Assembly (NCBI RefSeq): GCF_026391055.1
Contig: NZ_JAPLET010000026.1
Coordinates: 310,001-374,000, forward strand
Source of the DNA: Spirosoma sp.
GTDB taxonomy: Bacteria > Bacteroidota > Bacteroidia > Cytophagales > Spirosomataceae
Length of the DNA: 64,000 bases
Direction: 5' to 3'
Positions 5,823 to 35,640 of the stretch are shown here, in pieces. The notes under the pieces are model-generated. The model saw only the letters and a list, made by a program, of their open reading frames with translations, had not been told where the DNA came from and did no database searches. Positions within the stretch are counted from its first letter, which is position 1; every line of letters starts with the position of its first letter. The position numbers were made by a program, and so were the translations under genes.

Positions 5823-7001
5823 CTAGGCTTTCGGCGTTATCTCGAATACGGTAATGGCTTCTACCTCCGCGACACACTTAAAGATTTTGGTCTTGACACC
5901 CGTTGCTCCGGCTACGTCTTTGGCAATGGTTAGAATGGCCTCGTAGCTGTCGGCGTGGAAGTTGTTACCCTCCTTATCCGATACGACATACTCACCGTTG
6001 GCGTGTACGGGTTGCGGGTTGGCATAGACCGGCTCGTCGTCTAACTCACAGCCAGCAACGGTGCAAACCGTAGGGTCTACGCAGTTGGTACAAACCGCAT
6101 GAACGGGCGTAGTGGCCGGGGTGGGCAATCCGGCTGCTTCACAGAAACAGTTGTCGCAGTCGCCCGAACAAGCGTCTTTAGGCTTAGGGGCTAGCGGTTG
6201 TACTACCGTAAGCTGTTTCTGGTCTACACAGCCGTGTTCGTCGCAGTAGTTCATACCACAGTTGCCCGTACAGGGTGGCTTTTGGCCGGTGGTTTTCTGC
6301 GTATCGCGGATTATCTGAGCGGGGCCAAGAATCAGGGGCCATTTGCTTTTAAACTCGTGACAGACTTCGCACAGCCGTTCCTTGCAGTTTTTATGCTCAC
6401 AAAGCATGGTGACTACTTTCTCTTCGTTCATGCGCTCCTTCTCAGTCTGATCGATAACCGGCGCGGAGGCTACGGGTTGCGCTTCCACGACCACCGGCAG
6501 GGGCTTAACGGGTTCGGCTTCAGCAACCGGGGCGGGCTTGGCGGCTACGGGTTGCGCGGCTGCCGTTTGCCTTGCTTTTTGGCTGGCGGCTTTTTCCAGC
6601 TCCAGCCTTTCGGCTTTGCCAAGTTCTTCCAGTGGGCTGTGCCAGATGATTTGTTTCTTAGCCATATTGGTAGTAGTTAGTTGTGCGGTGGTGGTACTGG
6701 TTTGCTGCGCGGCCTCCTTCGCTTCTTTCTCCGCCCGCTTGGTCCAGTTAATGGCCTGTTCGGGGGTTACGTTGTACAGGCTCCGGGCGGCTTTGTAGAG
6801 CAGTCCTTTGGCGTCCTCGATGCGCTCGATAAAGCCCATGTCCATCAGGGCATGAATCAGCATTTGGGGTACGGCGTGCTGGGTACAGATGCCGAATACG
6901 TCACAGGATTTGAACTCGGTAACCGCCAGGCTACCGACCAGCGCATTGAGGGCCATCAGGTAGTTGTCGCGGGTGGGACGGGCTGCGGTGGATTGCTTCA
7001 T
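5823..7001 (-). CDS. Cys-rich multi-cluster phage protein
   Basis: A 392-residue protein. Residues 1-110 are a helical domain with a helix-turn-helix feel (MGFIERIEDAKGLLYKAARSLYNV). Residues 110-190 are Ala/Pro/Glu low complexity. Residues 200-330 hold four Cys clusters (CEHKNCKERLCEVC, CTGNCGMNYCDEHGC, CSGDCDNCFC, CTNCVDPTVC), which look like metal-binding knuckles. The last 60 residues are a small alpha/beta domain. The start lies 1 nt from the stranded terminase 3' end, so this was originally the gene following terL. Function unknown. Confidence 0.65.
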   Translation of the reverse strand: MKQSTAARPTRDNYLMALNALVGSLAVTEFKSCDVFGICTQHAVPQMLIHALMDMGFIERIEDAKGLLYKAARSLYNVTPEQAINWTKRAEKEAKEAAQQTSTTTAQLTTTNMAKKQIIWHSPLEELGKAERLELEKAASQKARQTAAAQPVAAKPAPVAEAEPVKPLPVVVEAQPVASAPVIDQTEKERMNEEKVVTMLCEHKNCKERLCEVCHEFKSKWPLILGPAQIIRDTQKTTGQKPPCTGNCGMNYCDEHGCVDQKQLTVVQPLAPKPKDACSGDCDNCFCEAAGLPTPATTPVHAVCTNCVDPTVCTVAGCELDDEPVYANPQPVHANGEYVVSDKEGNNFHADSYEAILTIAKDVAGATGVKTKIFKCVAEVEAITVFEITPKA

Positions 7002-7002
7002 G

Positions 7003-7087
7003 TTAGGCGTTGCCGTAGTTACCGGCGATTTGTTTATAAGTGGAGTATTCGAAGTTTACTAGTGCGTACCTAAAACAATCTCCCAAA
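7003..7087 (-). pseudogene. stranded original 3' end of terL
   Basis: The minus strand encodes LGDCFRYALVNFEYSTYKQIAGNYGNA and then a stop, aligning residue for residue with the current TerL C-terminus (LGDCFRYSLCNFEYTTYKQI...). The first seven codons are identical in DNA; the rest differ mostly at synonymous positions. The segment lacks a start and is separated from terL by the HNH gene and a hairpin. Its codon style matches the phage and it abuts the next gene at 7001, so it appears to be the ancestral terL end displaced by the insertion. Confidence 0.8.
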
Positions 7088-7089
7088 CA

Positions 7090-7132
7090 AAAGAGCCGAC
7101 CCCTAGCCATAGCAGCTAAGAGTCGGCTCTTT
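7090..7132 (-). terminator. hairpin at downstream end of HNH element
   Basis: Eleven-base arms (AAAGAGCCGAC at 7090-7100, GTCGGCTCTTT at 7122-7132) pair perfectly around a 21-nt loop. On the minus strand the stem is followed by TTTTGTTT, so it can act as an intrinsic terminator for the HNH gene. It could equally be a structural part of the mobile element. Confidence 0.65.
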
Positions 7133-7147
7133 ACAAGTCGATAGAAA

Positions 7148-7780
7148 TTACTTTCTAAACCGTAACCGTTGGGCGCAGGTTTTAGAGCAGCAATCGGGCT
7201 TAGCGTATTTGCTTTCGTTGAACACCTTGCCACAAAACTTACAGGTAAAATCAATATGATCGAGCTTATTAACCCGACGATACTTTGCCTTACAGGCGTT
7301 GGAACAAAAGCGAGACTGATAAATACCCTCAAAGGGTTTTTGGCATTGTTCACAGTTAATTGATCGCCTTTCGTGATTGAGACCAAATCCGCAGTTGATC
7401 GCATTTTGTCGGTGCCATTCAATGCCTTCTGGTGAAGCATGCCATTTTTTTGCTTCTTCTTTTCCCAACTCAAGGGCAGCAATAGACATTTCAAGTTTAC
7501 CGGGTATTTCTCGCCAATGATCTGACATGTGGTCAGCCTTAAGTTTGCACTCGAAATTGCCAATCGTATTGTTGTCTGGGTTATTATCCACATGGTGAAT
7601 TTCATACCCGTCAGGAATAGGCCCGACTTCACATTCCCACATATACCGGTGTAGGTACTGTTTAGCCCAGCAACCATTGACCTTAACCTGACCACGGAAG
7701 TACTTGCGGTCACTTCTTGATTTGGCAGTTCCGTACCGAATAAACCGGGTGCCGTTATAGGTAACAATTTCTTTTTGCAT
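7148..7780 (-). CDS. HNH homing endonuclease
   Basis: 210 residues from ATG 7780 (MQKEIVTYNGTRFIRY), the usual beginning of phage HNH_3-type endonucleases; an upstream in-frame ATG at 7825 adds an unlikely leader. The core reads LHRYMWECEVGPIPDGYEIHHVDNNPDNNTIGNF, giving the His-His...Asn metal-finger residues. The C-terminus has paired Cys motifs (CEQCQKPF, CKFCGKVF, CCSKTC) that resemble zinc-binding DNA-recognition modules. The gene is clearly more AT-rich than its neighbours, a sign of separate origin. It would nick or cut terL alleles lacking the element. Confidence 0.9.
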   Translation of the reverse strand: MQKEIVTYNGTRFIRYGTAKSRSDRKYFRGQVKVNGCWAKQYLHRYMWECEVGPIPDGYEIHHVDNNPDNNTIGNFECKLKADHMSDHWREIPGKLEMSIAALELGKEEAKKWHASPEGIEWHRQNAINCGFGLNHERRSINCEQCQKPFEGIYQSRFCSNACKAKYRRVNKLDHIDFTCKFCGKVFNESKYAKPDCCSKTCAQRLRFRK

Positions 7781-7842
7781 AGTATTAGGGTATAAACTAC
7801 CATAAATATACAAAGAATAACGCAATGTGTCCGCATGATTAT

Positions 7843-9201
7843 CTATGGGTTAACATTATGATTTTGAATTATTTGTTTATAAGTTGTATACTCAAAATTA
7901 CATAATGAGTACCTAAAACAATCTCCCAAATGACCATATCCATTCTTGTCGGCGTGTTTCTTGTCGAGGGTTCCGTCCGACAACCGGCGCATCTTTTTGA
8001 TGTCGGACGTTGTGATGGGGCACTTGTCGGGGTCGATCCGCATCTTGCCCAGGTAGTGCGAGATCAGGGCGTTCGAGATAAAGCAGCTGGTGTCGGTGCC
8101 GGGGTTGAACTTGGGGACGGCATCGTAGTTGGTCATCTTGGCACCGTACTTCATCATGTAACCCCGGATCAGATTCCAGGCCGACTGGTTACCCTTCGTG
8201 TAGGCGCTGGCATTGTTGCCCGATGCGTCACCGGTAAACAGCAGGAAGTTCTTGCCGTACTTCATGCACAGTTCTTTGCACAGTGCTTCCAGATCCAGCC
8301 CGTCGATGTGGTATTCGTCGAGGAATACCGGAGCCCCGTTCTGCTTCTGCATGATCAGTACTGAGTTGACCACGTTAAAGTCGTGAATCAGGTAGACGGG
8401 CAGACCCGGCTTGTATTCGACTTTACCGAAGTATTTGCCTGGGTTGGCAAGCAGCCGGTGGAAATACGGGTTTTCGGGTTTGGGTACGCCCCATTTGCCG
8501 AGTGCGTCAATTTCGTGCTGGTCGGGGTCAACCGTCAGCAGCCAGTCGAAGAACTTAAAGGCGTGTGACGGACAGAACGGGTTATCGCCGTAGTTAGCCA
8601 GTACCGCATTACAGGGGATGGTCTTCTTATCGAAGAACAGCTCATAAATCCACGACTCAATACTGATCGGGTTGAACGTGAAGTGGAAGCGGGGCGGTAT
8701 CTCGTACTGGTTCCGGAGCGAACCGAACATACTGATAAAGGCTTGCTGGCTAATCTCACCGTACTTGGTAATCGGCTCCTCGACCCAGATATCGGTCGGG
8801 TCGGCAATACTCATGATCTTTTGCGGATTGTCGAAACTACCCGCCAGCAGCATATTCCCCGTAATGGTGTTGATGATCGTGTAATCGGAGTCACGGCAAA
8901 CGAACTGGTTACTGAGCCAGGGCCGGGCGTTGATGATGTCTTTGAAGAGCTGGTACTGGCTGTTCTTTACGTCGACCTGATTCTGGCGGGCGTAGATACC
9001 CCGGAAGTAGTCTTTTCCGGCGCAGCGCCCGAGCAGTTCACGCGCCTTGGTGGCTGACTTGGCCGAAAAGCGGCTGCCGTACCAGATTTGGACCGGGTTA
9101 TGATTAAACAGGTGCGGAATGAATACGTCGGGCACCACAAAGCAATAGTCCGGCACGGGCCGTCCTTTGAATCGTGATGCGGGTAAGTAGTCAATACGCA
9201 T
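7843..9201 (-). CDS. terL: terminase large subunit
   Basis: 452 residues from ATG 9201, two nucleotides after the small-subunit stop. The ATPase half shows a Walker A-like GSRFSAKS near residue 40 and a Walker B-like DIWVEEP. The nuclease half shows DFNVVNSVL, TGDASGNN and a final GDCFRY Asp (about residue 427). It translocates and cuts DNA during packaging. The last 25 codons are AT-rich and come from the HNH element; an alternative older C-terminus lies at 7003-7087. Confidence 0.9.
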   Translation of the reverse strand: MRIDYLPASRFKGRPVPDYCFVVPDVFIPHLFNHNPVQIWYGSRFSAKSATKARELLGRCAGKDYFRGIYARQNQVDVKNSQYQLFKDIINARPWLSNQFVCRDSDYTIINTITGNMLLAGSFDNPQKIMSIADPTDIWVEEPITKYGEISQQAFISMFGSLRNQYEIPPRFHFTFNPISIESWIYELFFDKKTIPCNAVLANYGDNPFCPSHAFKFFDWLLTVDPDQHEIDALGKWGVPKPENPYFHRLLANPGKYFGKVEYKPGLPVYLIHDFNVVNSVLIMQKQNGAPVFLDEYHIDGLDLEALCKELCMKYGKNFLLFTGDASGNNASAYTKGNQSAWNLIRGYMMKYGAKMTNYDAVPKFNPGTDTSCFISNALISHYLGKMRIDPDKCPITTSDIKKMRRLSDGTLDKKHADKNGYGHLGDCFRYSLCNFEYTTYKQIIQNHNVNP

Positions 9202-20261: not shown

Positions 20262-20624
20262 TTATAGATTGCGGATTGACTTTTTCAGGTCGTGAATGGC
20301 CTGTTTAAGCTCGGCTGACTTGATGGTGTAAAAGTCCTTCGGGGTCATTAGTACCCATTCGATTGGCCCGTGGCCATTGGAAGCGCAGAAGTTGGCGGAC
20401 AGATCATTGGCCGCAGCTTCTGAAAACTGAGTAGGAAACACCTGACCGATTTCAACCTGAGCCAGGTTGTCAGAGTCAGCCATTACGGTGTAGACTGCAT
20501 CTTCACTGGCAACGATCCACGGCGTGGCGGACAAAATCGGGTAGCCTTTCGGGTCCAGCTTTTTCTTCACTTCGACCCGGCGACTTTCCAACGTTTTTAC
20601 CAGGGCTTCTAACTGCGATTTCAT
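20262..20624 (-). CDS. unknown phage protein
   Basis: A 120-residue protein with helical ends and a beta-rich middle (SATPWIVASEDAVYTVMADS, GPIEWVLMTPKDFYTI). It starts a transcription subunit: upstream are the leader motif, an AT-rich block and a terminator. Confidence 0.6.
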   Translation of the reverse strand: MKSQLEALVKTLESRRVEVKKKLDPKGYPILSATPWIVASEDAVYTVMADSDNLAQVEIGQVFPTQFSEAAANDLSANFCASNGHGPIEWVLMTPKDFYTIKSAELKQAIHDLKKSIRNL

Positions 20625-20627
20625 TGT

Positions 20628-20644
20628 GGTAGCTGATTTAAGTA
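20628..20644 (-). promoter_or_regulatory. recurrent leader motif copy
   Basis: The minus strand reads TACTTAAATCAGCTACC, three nucleotides before the ATG at 20624. One of at least five similar leaders in the early region. Confidence 0.55.
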
Positions 20645-24011: not shown

Positions 24012-24434
24012 TTAGGCTTTGCGGACGGACTGAATGACTTTGTTGACTTCGAACAGTTCGCCCTCACTGATGAACTTATTGGCGATTTTGATTTCGGTCA
24101 GGCCGAACTTGCGGACCAGAAACTTGATGTCGTACTCGGCATCGTCGGCCTTGGTGAAATGCCCGTTCTGGCAGTGCTGAACGAAGGAGAAGGCTTTCAG
24201 TTCCAGCAGGGCCTGCGGGCTGGCCAGAGGGCCGATGTTGTTTTTTTCCATCTTCCAGATAGCCGCGAAGAACTTCAGCCCATTGGCGTTGCAGTAGTCT
24301 ACGTTCTTGGCCTTGTCATGGGAGAACGCCAGCTTGCTGGTCTTGTCGTTAATCAGGTAGTCGGTATCGATTGTCGTCCGGCTCGATCCTAATGCAACTA
24401 AAGCCTGTCCGCCGATCATTAACTGTTTTTCCAT
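24012..24434 (-). CDS. nucleotidyltransferase-like (AbiEii/DUF6036-type) protein
   Basis: A 140-residue protein beginning IGGQALVALGSSRTTIDTDYLI, the G-G-x-A-L...R-x-T-x-D-x-D pattern of minimal nucleotidyltransferases related to AbiEii. The rest is helical (LLELKAFSFVQHCQNGHFTKADDAEYDIKFLVRKFG), again as in such proteins (K...D-x-x-D-I). No partner antitoxin is evident. Could be a toxin-like moron or a phage regulatory enzyme. Confidence 0.65.
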   Translation of the reverse strand: MEKQLMIGGQALVALGSSRTTIDTDYLINDKTSKLAFSHDKAKNVDYCNANGLKFFAAIWKMEKNNIGPLASPQALLELKAFSFVQHCQNGHFTKADDAEYDIKFLVRKFGLTEIKIANKFISEGELFEVNKVIQSVRKA

Positions 24435-24437
24435 TGT

Positions 24438-24454
24438 GGTAGCTGATTTAAGTA
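24438..24454 (-). promoter_or_regulatory. recurrent leader motif copy
   Basis: The minus strand reads TACTTAAATCAGCTACC, three nucleotides before the ATG at 24434, identical over 17 nt to the copy at 20628. Upstream, GATGTAAATATA also matches the start of the AT-rich block at 20657. Confidence 0.55.
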
Positions 24455-34584: not shown

Positions 34585-35640
34585 CTATTTTTCAGGGGCC
34601 TTCTTTTCCAGTTCAGCACATCGCTCCATATCCCTCATGGCTACCTCATTCGACTCGAAGAAGCGCATGGGGCTCACTTTGATCTGAGGGCTTGATTTGT
34701 GGTAAATCTGCATAGCCGCGAATAGTGTAGAGGTTTTCGACTCCAACTTTTGGCCCTCTTTTCCTGCCAGTGCAACGACCCACCCGGCTCTGCAATGGGT
34801 TGTCTCGCACGTATGCCATGTTGACATATCCAGTGCATTAGGCCGAGAAACAGCTTCTAATACTTGCTGGTGTATATTTTCCAGTACAGGTACTGCAAAT
34901 CCTGACTTATCTCCCTTCACATCGGAGCAACGGGAGCAATCGGAGCAATCGGAGCAATCGAAGCAACGCGAGCAACGGCAGCAACGGGAGCAACGGGAGC
35001 AATCGGAGCAAACGCAGCAACGGGAGCAACGGGAGCAATCGGAGCAACCGGAGCAATCGGAGCAATCGGAGCAACCGGAGCAAACGGAGCAACCGGAGCA
35101 ATCGGAGCAACCGGAGCAACGCGAGCAACGGCAGCAACGGGAGCAACGGGAGCAACGGGAGCAATCGGAGCAAACGCAGCAACGGGAGCAACGGGAGCAA
35201 TCGGAGCAACCGGAGCAATCGGAGCAATCGGAGCAACCGGAGCAAACGGAGCAACCGGAGCCGGAGCAACCGGAGCAATCGGAGCAACCGGAGCAACCGG
35301 AGCAAACGGAGCAACCGGAGCAATCGGAGCAACCGGAGCAACCGGAGCAATCGGAGCAACCGGAGCAACCGGAGCAATCGGAGCAACCGGAGCAACCGGA
35401 GCAAACGGAGCAACCGGAGCAATCGGAGCAATCGGAGCAACGGGAGCAATCGGAGCAATCGGAGCAACGGGAGCAATCGGAGCAATCGGAGCAATGGGAG
35501 CAATTCCAGCACGCCGTATTGGCTTCATTCTGTTGCTGGTAATCTTGGTTACGCTCCGCAAATTCGGGCGATACGCCATTGCATCTCTTATTGTCACGTC
35601 TCAGGAAATCTGAATAGGTAGAGAAAATTTGAGTTGTCAT
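34585..35640 (-). CDS. giant CSx tripeptide-repeat protein
   Basis: A 351-residue protein in three parts. Residues 1-42 begin [31 protein letters not shown]. Residues about 43-240 are roughly 65 repeats of Cys-Ser-x (x mainly Asp, Gly or Arg), making the chain more than a quarter Cys. Residues 245-351 form a folded end with [21 protein letters not shown] and [21 protein letters not shown], a pattern I recognise from repeat-bearing phage proteins of unknown function. The correct frame is set by the non-repeat ends. Metal binding is an obvious possibility, not shown. Confidence 0.8.
34919..35515. repeat. 9-bp tandem repeat array (CSx codons)
   Basis: About 66 units of GGAGCAAYC-type sequence (plus strand), each coding one Cys-Ser-x on the minus strand. 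All minus frames stay open. A longer block (near 34967 and again near 35120) is duplicated with period about 150 bp, and one unit is altered near 35257 (GGAGCCGGAGC). Slippage and unequal recombination are expected. Confidence 0.9.

Follow-up and report, generated by a model that had tools for sequence, protein, structure and literature searches.

How can a terminase gene have two different ends with an endonuclease gene lodged between them, and which of the two ends was originally its own? This question is raised by a locus in a 64,000-nucleotide stretch of Spirosoma sp. DNA (contig NZ_JAPLET010000026.1, positions 310,001 to 374,000; the whole stretch is called the window hereafter), where an HNH endonuclease gene lies between two versions of the 3′ end of terL, the gene of the large terminase subunit. 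From the sequence, we conclude that the window very probably carries a mobile endonuclease element of a Bacteroidota prophage, which has invaded the 3′ end of terL. The coordinates of the features are collected in Table 1.

On the minus strand the order is terL with its substitute end, the HNH gene, a hairpin, and the old terL end. The first-pass annotation, made from the letters of the window, had pointed to an identical 22-bp block in both terL ends and to two versions of one TerL C-terminal peptide on either side of the HNH gene, and both observations hold. Indeed, the block is an exact repeat inside a longer direct repeat (60 nt, 82% identical, spacing 843 nt), and blastn of the two HNH flanks against each other returns a 60-nt match (E = 2e-12). 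Outside a 9-bp array, only two exact direct repeats of at least 22 bp exist in the window, and this block is one of them. The active terL end reads LGDCFRYSLCNFEYTTYKQIIQNHNVNP and the downstream copy LGDCFRYALVNFEYSTYKQIAGNYGNA; their local alignment scores 103, against at most 35 in 100 shuffles, and the HNH open reading frame (ORF, 7780-7148) separates them. The other exact repeat joins 20622-20644 to 24432-24454, and the array, at 34923-35503, is made of about 65 tandem copies of the 9-bp unit.

The substitute tail had also been described as AT-rich, like the HNH gene. AT-rich it is, but its composition is not merely HNH-like: the third-position GC is 0.755 in terL codons 1-420, 0.443 in the HNH gene and 0.095 in the substitute tail after the block, compared to 0.524 in the old tail after the block. 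Furthermore, the block is AT-rich in both copies and the preceding codons 420-424 likewise end in A or T, so that the foreign-looking tract probably extends slightly past both ends first given for it.

Which of the two ends is the native one? A replacement of the terL 3′ end with the old end left behind had been proposed, together with an alignment to relatives lacking the insertion as a check, and the presence of both ends without an HNH gene as a case that would contradict it. Uninterrupted terL homologues are found at 74% (L003/L139) and 66% (L004/L140). In each of the five relatives from this bacterial family whose terL was compared, the fetched locus contains a single uninterrupted terL end, and among the relatives fetched we saw no case of both ends without the HNH gene. 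The nearest named terL relatives are Fibrivirga and Arsenicibacter, which we take to belong to the Bacteroidota. The downstream copy occupies the position of the native end, since the gene directly next to it has a homologue after terL in two of the ten relatives examined, L003 and L010. A second, distant terL match (29% identity) is present in the same genome, at G000:C24:82416-83237 (L032), and makes a further prophage likely there.

The gene located between the two terL ends encodes a protein matching Pfam HNH_3 (E 3.2e-13), in which the conserved His and Asn residues of the HNH domain are present. Its only match in the Protein Data Bank (PDB) is 1u3e (E 0.006), which we take to be the intron-borne I-HmuI. 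Phage HNH genes are often carried by introns, and one could imagine a self-splicing group I intron here, with RNA splicing joining terL to the downstream copy; two loci of the survey described below (L040 and L077), where terL is interrupted without a recognised intein, could be introns as well. However, a search of 6500-8500 with Rfam gave no group I intron match at E up to 5, and the right flank of the insert is a hairpin beside the relic. Splicing is moreover unnecessary, as terL continues unbroken into its own complete end. We give the intron explanation next to no probability.

The mobile element would operate as follows. The HNH protein would recognise the terL sequence surrounding the codon for the packaging nuclease's third catalytic Asp and cut the terL alleles devoid of the element, and repair would copy the element in. 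As the sequence shows, the insert supplies its own version of the remaining part of terL, then the HNH gene and the hairpin, and an older-looking terL end lies on its 3′ side. As the insert carries its own rest of terL, the host gene should stay functional without RNA or protein splicing.

Table 1. Features of the terL locus, in window coordinates
Feature	Coordinates	Strand	Remarks
terL with substitute C-terminus, 452 aa, complete	7843..9201	minus	Terminase_3, E 2.8e-20
Substitute terL 3′ end, 28 codons + TAG	7843..7929	minus	Third-position GC 0.095 after the 22-bp block
22-bp identical block in active terL end, encodes LGDCFRY	7909..7930	minus	Presumed third catalytic Asp = codon 427
22-bp identical block, relic copy	7066..7087	minus	Exact direct repeat
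Probable relic of native terL 3′ end (LGDCFRYALVNFEYSTYKQIAGNYGNA + stop)	7003..7086	minus	Stop lies 1 nt 5′ of the start codon (ATG) of the next gene
Complete insert, 843 nt (281 terL-frame codons); sole in-frame stop TAG 7845-7843	7087..7929	minus	
Third, diverged target copy over sigma70-like promoter, CGGACA-N17-TATATT; from 7831 the codons spell D-T-L-R-Y-S-L-Y	7805..7833	minus	Presumed HNH promoter and operator
HNH homing endonuclease gene, 210 aa	7148..7780	minus	HNH_3 domain, two C-terminal Cys-rich (zinc-finger-like) segments
Strong hairpin followed by T-rich run, 3′ of the HNH stop	7090..7132	minus	Presumed terminator and right edge of insert; folded stretch 7060-7150, z -5.0
Gene downstream of terL	5823..7001	minus	Relic identified as original terL end by homologues of this gene after terL in relatives

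Is this endonuclease tied to terL elsewhere? Single-sequence searches confirmed no close relative of the window HNH in viral contigs or genome contigs, and among 222 genomes of the bacterial family a single 43-residue fragment was all they gave apart from the window itself; an aligned HNH family was thus needed. By tblastn, the window HNH led to phages with the same HNH family inside or beside terL. Viral contigs were scanned three times by HNH similarity, with an alignment of nine HNH sequences and two more as query; the best 80 loci of each scan were kept from at least 600 matches, which makes the resulting 230 loci a sample of what resembles the queries and no census. With 15 phage records, some of them collected via neighbouring DNA rather than the HNH itself, and the window, 246 loci were obtained, 179 of them non-redundant once near-copies at 80% HNH identity had been dropped (an earlier set went from 95 to 84 loci by the same rule). 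Loci with the HNH cut by a contig end were left out of the counts of HNH endings, motifs and frame stops.

A terL ORF is present in the fetched locus of 177 of the 179 non-redundant loci. In the other two, the contig ends cut upstream of the HNH, and one of these still has an intein-terL junction. Among the 177, the terL frame runs across the HNH in 103, 29 are split inteins, terL ends before the HNH in 38, the arrangement is antisense in four, and terL lies elsewhere in three; the intein-type carriers thus amount to 132 loci. In the 103 loci with a continuous frame (L049, L051, L069 and L080, for instance), the HNH is nested in another frame of the terL-intein ORF, always at the same offset, and the host frame is open over the approximately 600 nt of the HNH: these nested genes are a large set of overlapping genes. 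In the split type (L039, L075, L097, L124, L129 and others), terL with the N-terminal part of the intein is followed by the HNH, then by the C-terminal part with the terL end, and the terL-phase frame has stops across the HNH in 29/29. A profile of the C-terminal intein block revealed that five more loci labelled free-standing (L223, L226, L263, L267 and L270) are split inteins; these five, along with L040 and L077, are still included in the free-standing counts of 38 and 37 given here and were relabelled for the tree. In L040 (3758-4650) and L077 (2776-3760), an HNH-bearing insert without recognised intein blocks interrupts terL. These inserts are perhaps group I introns missed by Rfam, which at relaxed thresholds gave no group I intron in L040 and only chance snoRNA-like matches in L077. 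Finally, L090 (1162-3636) seemingly has an intein at the terL site with its HNH gene outside, downstream of terL, and is possibly an intermediate.

In the window, the insert starts after a His codon, two codons before the Asp of a D-x-x-R-Y motif, which we take to be the third catalytic residue of the TerL nuclease. The motif of the SPP1-like terL of L123 aligns with that of the solved nuclease domain 2wbn, presumably from phage SPP1; a search for relatives of L123 in the phage collection gave just one short match. The splice junction was pattern-matched in 116 of the 132 intein-type loci (16 remained unmatched): the insertion falls 1-3 codons before this Asp in 109/132 and after it in seven, and the commonest position, exactly two codons before (77/132), is that of the window. 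Similarly, CL2 and CL1 are 99.9% identical outside the site, where 1021 bp of CL2 replace 6 bp of CL1 directly after the same His codon. The first-pass annotation had designated the codons of this Asp as the target, and the comparison of loci extends the proposal: the idea of this terL site as a family-wide target of the HNH family is supported.

A different role, in packaging itself, could also be considered for an HNH gene next to terL. HNH genes next to terminase genes have been reported or proposed to act in packaging in some phages (PMC10448857, PMC12724721), and the window HNH might be a component of this kind, like HK97 gp74 or Skunavirus HrdP, the repeat being an unrelated duplication. 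However, a constant part of the packaging module would not be expected to be as sporadic as the HNH is in our Yuavirus, Cornellvirus and Lactobacillus phage searches: it was covered by 4 of the 40 Yuavirus records listed (of 68), 3 of 35 Cornellvirus records cover most of the query, and CL1 is without what CL2 has. Moreover, most members of the family sit in intein-type carriers inside terL. A packaging role is in our opinion highly improbable.

In Yuavirus we compared PAE1, SN1 and FBPa53, which have the HNH after terL, with four HNH-less phages. The terL nucleotide difference is 0.8-1.7% upstream of the site and 17-25% in the last 72 nt, counted from the site, in 12/12 pairs (Fisher p 3e-8 to 7e-17). 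The changed tail codons are all synonymous in SN1 and FBPa53, and PAE1 has two amino-acid changes; the HNH-less phages differ among themselves by 0-1 nt in the tail in the four pairs compared. In Cornellvirus, two HNH carriers share the last 106-nt block of terL (106/106) and differ in all eleven other blocks, and VSiA, without HNH, agrees with PhiSTP1 at 80/106 positions in the last block, against 93-104/106 elsewhere. The Cornellvirus figures are plain block counts, and the boundaries of the recoded tails were chosen after the pattern had been seen. The association of a recoded terL tail with the HNH recurs in Yuavirus and, less clearly, in Cornellvirus. Two further arrangements were noted in these genera. 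The Yuavirus PAC5 (L047:2270-2659) has a different small ORF between terL and portal and keeps the ordinary terL tail. In the Cornellvirus loci L130 (2965-4795) and L136, the HNH is on the strand opposite to terL, and the terL tail is changed there too.

Are there left-over native ends in other loci? We saw none 3′ of the HNH in Yuavirus, Cornellvirus not having been searched for one. However, where terL ends in R[RK]G[NHQ], the HNH ORF terminates with the same 4-5 residues followed by a stop in 8/12 loci, mostly with different codons, against 0/166 HNH endings of this type in the other loci. Over 36 loci, HNH and terL agree at 49 of the 180 positions that their last five residues make up; in 2000 permutations the average was 22 and the highest value 44. 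In L074, whose PAE1-like terL is of another type, the four final residues are also common to both proteins. We read the short shared endings, in the loci with an SPP1-like terL, as what would be native terL ends worn down to the HNH stop.

Several points weigh against the invasion of terL by a mobile element as described above. Within the sample, a full-length relic 3′ of the HNH exists in the window only. The homologue of the downstream gene is found after terL in just two of the ten relatives examined, and the relic is closer than the active tail to the relatives in four of five comparisons, of 39 nt each and in one case by a single base. No close empty allele of the window prophage was found, the best relative having 74% protein identity, and the event itself is unseen. 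The 22 bp with the Asp codon are identical in both copies, so recoding of this core alone cannot protect the occupied allele against re-cutting. The hairpin was not listed by a consensus terminator scan. Lastly, the Cornellvirus contrast, for which two HNH-less relatives were compared, is weak against the more distant St162 (78/106 in the tail, 84-102 elsewhere). The uniqueness of the full-length relic, along with the mosaic nature of phage genomes, would also suit a passive event, that is, a one-off illegitimate recombination between related prophages without site-specific homing. Against it, the insertion point coincides with the one commonest among intein-type relatives with the same HNH family, and other terL lineages, too, combine an HNH with an altered tail or a short relic. 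We regard the passive event as unlikely.

Where does the invading element come from? The window HNH has the same offset to the terL frame as in the 103/103 loci with a continuous frame. Among the 37 free-standing loci, that of the window is the only one in which the terL-phase frame is open across the HNH (the mean is 8 stops), and when synonymous codons of the window HNH gene are permuted, the frame stays open in 0.15% of 2000 draws (0.0015). The length of the insert, 843 nt or 3 × 281, places the relic in the terL frame. In a tree of the family, the window HNH belongs to a starred set of seven rows, five of them inteins (SH-aLRT 97), and explaining the free-standing label takes 21 changes, of which starred branches force at least seven; this tree, with 177 of the 179 rows (two of less than 150 aa were dropped), was built by a quick method without bootstrap, and 96 of its 174 branches are weakly supported. 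An insert of 3 × 281 nt with an intein-phase frame still open across the HNH makes it likely that the window insert descends from an intein. The ancestor would be an intein that contained the HNH gene in another frame and whose splicing halves were replaced by the copy of the terL tail, and the open frame would be a fossil of the intein stage.

On the other side, the C-terminal intein block (ending in His-Asn before Cys, Ser or Thr) was undetected in the insert, to which a profile of 80 relatives gave no score. Considered as an intein, the insert is in frame but closed by one TAG, and the first 28 of its 281 codons are terL tail. The case for intein descent is built on phase, open frame and tree, with the open frame noticed post hoc. 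The same frame could be read in another way: if the TAG at 7845-7843 were sometimes bypassed, a long terL product with the 281-codon insert and the old tail would result. The length of 3 × 281 nt would suit such readthrough, since the terL frame forms a 277-aa ORF from 7836 to the relic stop, and a hidden out-of-frame HNH without splicing support has been described in a methylase insertion (PMC11855218). Nevertheless, the C-terminus of the short TerL form is already complete and homologous, the insert would break the nuclease at the presumed catalytic Asp, and the hairpin stands in the path; an open frame is equally expected from recent descent from an intein. Readthrough is very unlikely in our view.

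How might the expression of the endonuclease be limited? Upstream of the window HNH gene, a promoter-like sequence overlaps a third copy of the target, which has diverged. Taken alone, the promoter-like match is at chance level (3 found, 1.9 expected). Across the family, we looked for GAY-N6-(CGN/AGR)-TAY on the coding strand, at most 140 nt before the HNH start, the real terL site being excluded and loci with less than 150 nt upstream dropped (n = 83 and n = 92). The motif occurs in 37/83 loci of the first set, against a mean of 1.07 (maximum 4) in dinucleotide shuffles, 5/83 on the other strand and 2/80 further upstream. This first count used hand-set coordinates; with profile-based HNH starts it becomes 39/83. 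In the other non-redundant loci the result was replicated, with 28/92 against 1.45 (maximum 4) in first-order Markov sequences, 1/92 on the other strand and 3/91 further upstream. The copies lying in the intein's own frame (14 loci in the first set, 8 in the second) possibly reflect just the intein protein sequence; those outside this frame are alone found in 23/83 and 20/92 loci.

Two additional properties of these copies were noted. At a position which the motif leaves free, 15/24 and 13/20 of them have Ala or Thr, against 5/43 motif matches elsewhere; in real terL sites the figure is 41/57. Furthermore, the copies of L051, L064, L068, L075, L113 and L123 agree with a sigma70 promoter in at least 11 of the 12 positions, and target copies have higher promoter scores than real terL sites (p 6e-6). 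The use of the Arg codons CGA/AGA (22/24 site copies against 10/57 real terL sites) was dropped as support, as it is also found in 26/43 motif matches elsewhere. More than half of the loci have no such target copy. The overlap of the third target copy with a promoter-like sequence, in a pattern enriched across the HNH family, suggests that the HNH would repress itself from a promoter overlapping a copy of its own target. Given that I-TevI has an operator of this kind (PMC2988022), the pattern is most naturally read as self-repression.

Inteins, introns, free-standing endonucleases and 3′-end replacers are usually handled as separate classes. Taken together, our results raise the proposal, for which we see the chances as even, that one terL-specific endonuclease family keeps its target and switches its vehicle: it would ride in an intein, its gene occupying another frame, and repeatedly become a splicing-free rebuilder of the 3′ end. 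The element of the window would have made this switch recently, its intein-phase frame not yet being closed, and in several vehicles a promoter from a copy of the family's own target would both drive and repress the endonuclease. Because one endonuclease family is found at one codon-level terL site both in intein-type carriers and as a free-standing gene, comparing alleles is a way to study the switch between classes, and near-isogenic pairs are at hand (CL1/CL2, and Yuavirus with and without HNH). Such an element could also explain why, in some phages, the terL tail is altered in its DNA and hardly in its protein. Swapped tails and hidden insertions matter for annotation and phylogeny, because terL serves as a phage marker gene.

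Full-text literature searches, with subscription journals mostly outside their coverage and sources available in part, gave no phage terminase example of a 3′-end-replacing endonuclease. The nearest arrangement is that of the fungal mobile ORFs described in Allomyces atp6 and in Glomus atp6, atp9, cox2 and nad3, mitochondrial genes that receive a foreign C-terminus (PMC3630166). The first-pass annotation had already drawn this parallel, and the arrangement is the same: a substitute 3′ end, in frame and diverged more in DNA than in protein, comes with an endonuclease ORF, and the native end stays behind downstream. By contrast, the Glomus enzymes are LAGLIDADG or GIY-YIG proteins of mitochondria, whereas the window has an HNH_3 protein of a phage, inserted where the catalytic centre of the packaging nuclease presumably lies, and its family is carried at this site mostly by intein-type elements.

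Among phage systems, intronless homing by T4 SegF likewise involves a free-standing gene beside its target gene, and co-conversion of the flanks is described for such enzymes (PMC2988022); the rebuilt gene end and left-over native end of the window are not mentioned in the available part of that paper. The TerL inteins of mycobacteriophages (PMC5050341) are, like the relatives of the window HNH, mobile elements of terL, but they lie in the ATPase domain and the window site in the nuclease domain; our HNH family is nested out of frame, and the element of the window is without a detectable C-terminal splicing block. In the ShiLan methylase, too, an HNH occupies another frame of an insert that is open in the host frame (PMC11855218). 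There the host protein is thought to retain the insert, while in the window the substitute end and its stop precede the HNH. Lastly, the overlap of a target-site copy with the endonuclease promoter is shared with I-TevI, a GIY-YIG enzyme whose autorepression was shown experimentally (PMC2988022), whereas here it appears as a statistical pattern in an HNH enzyme.

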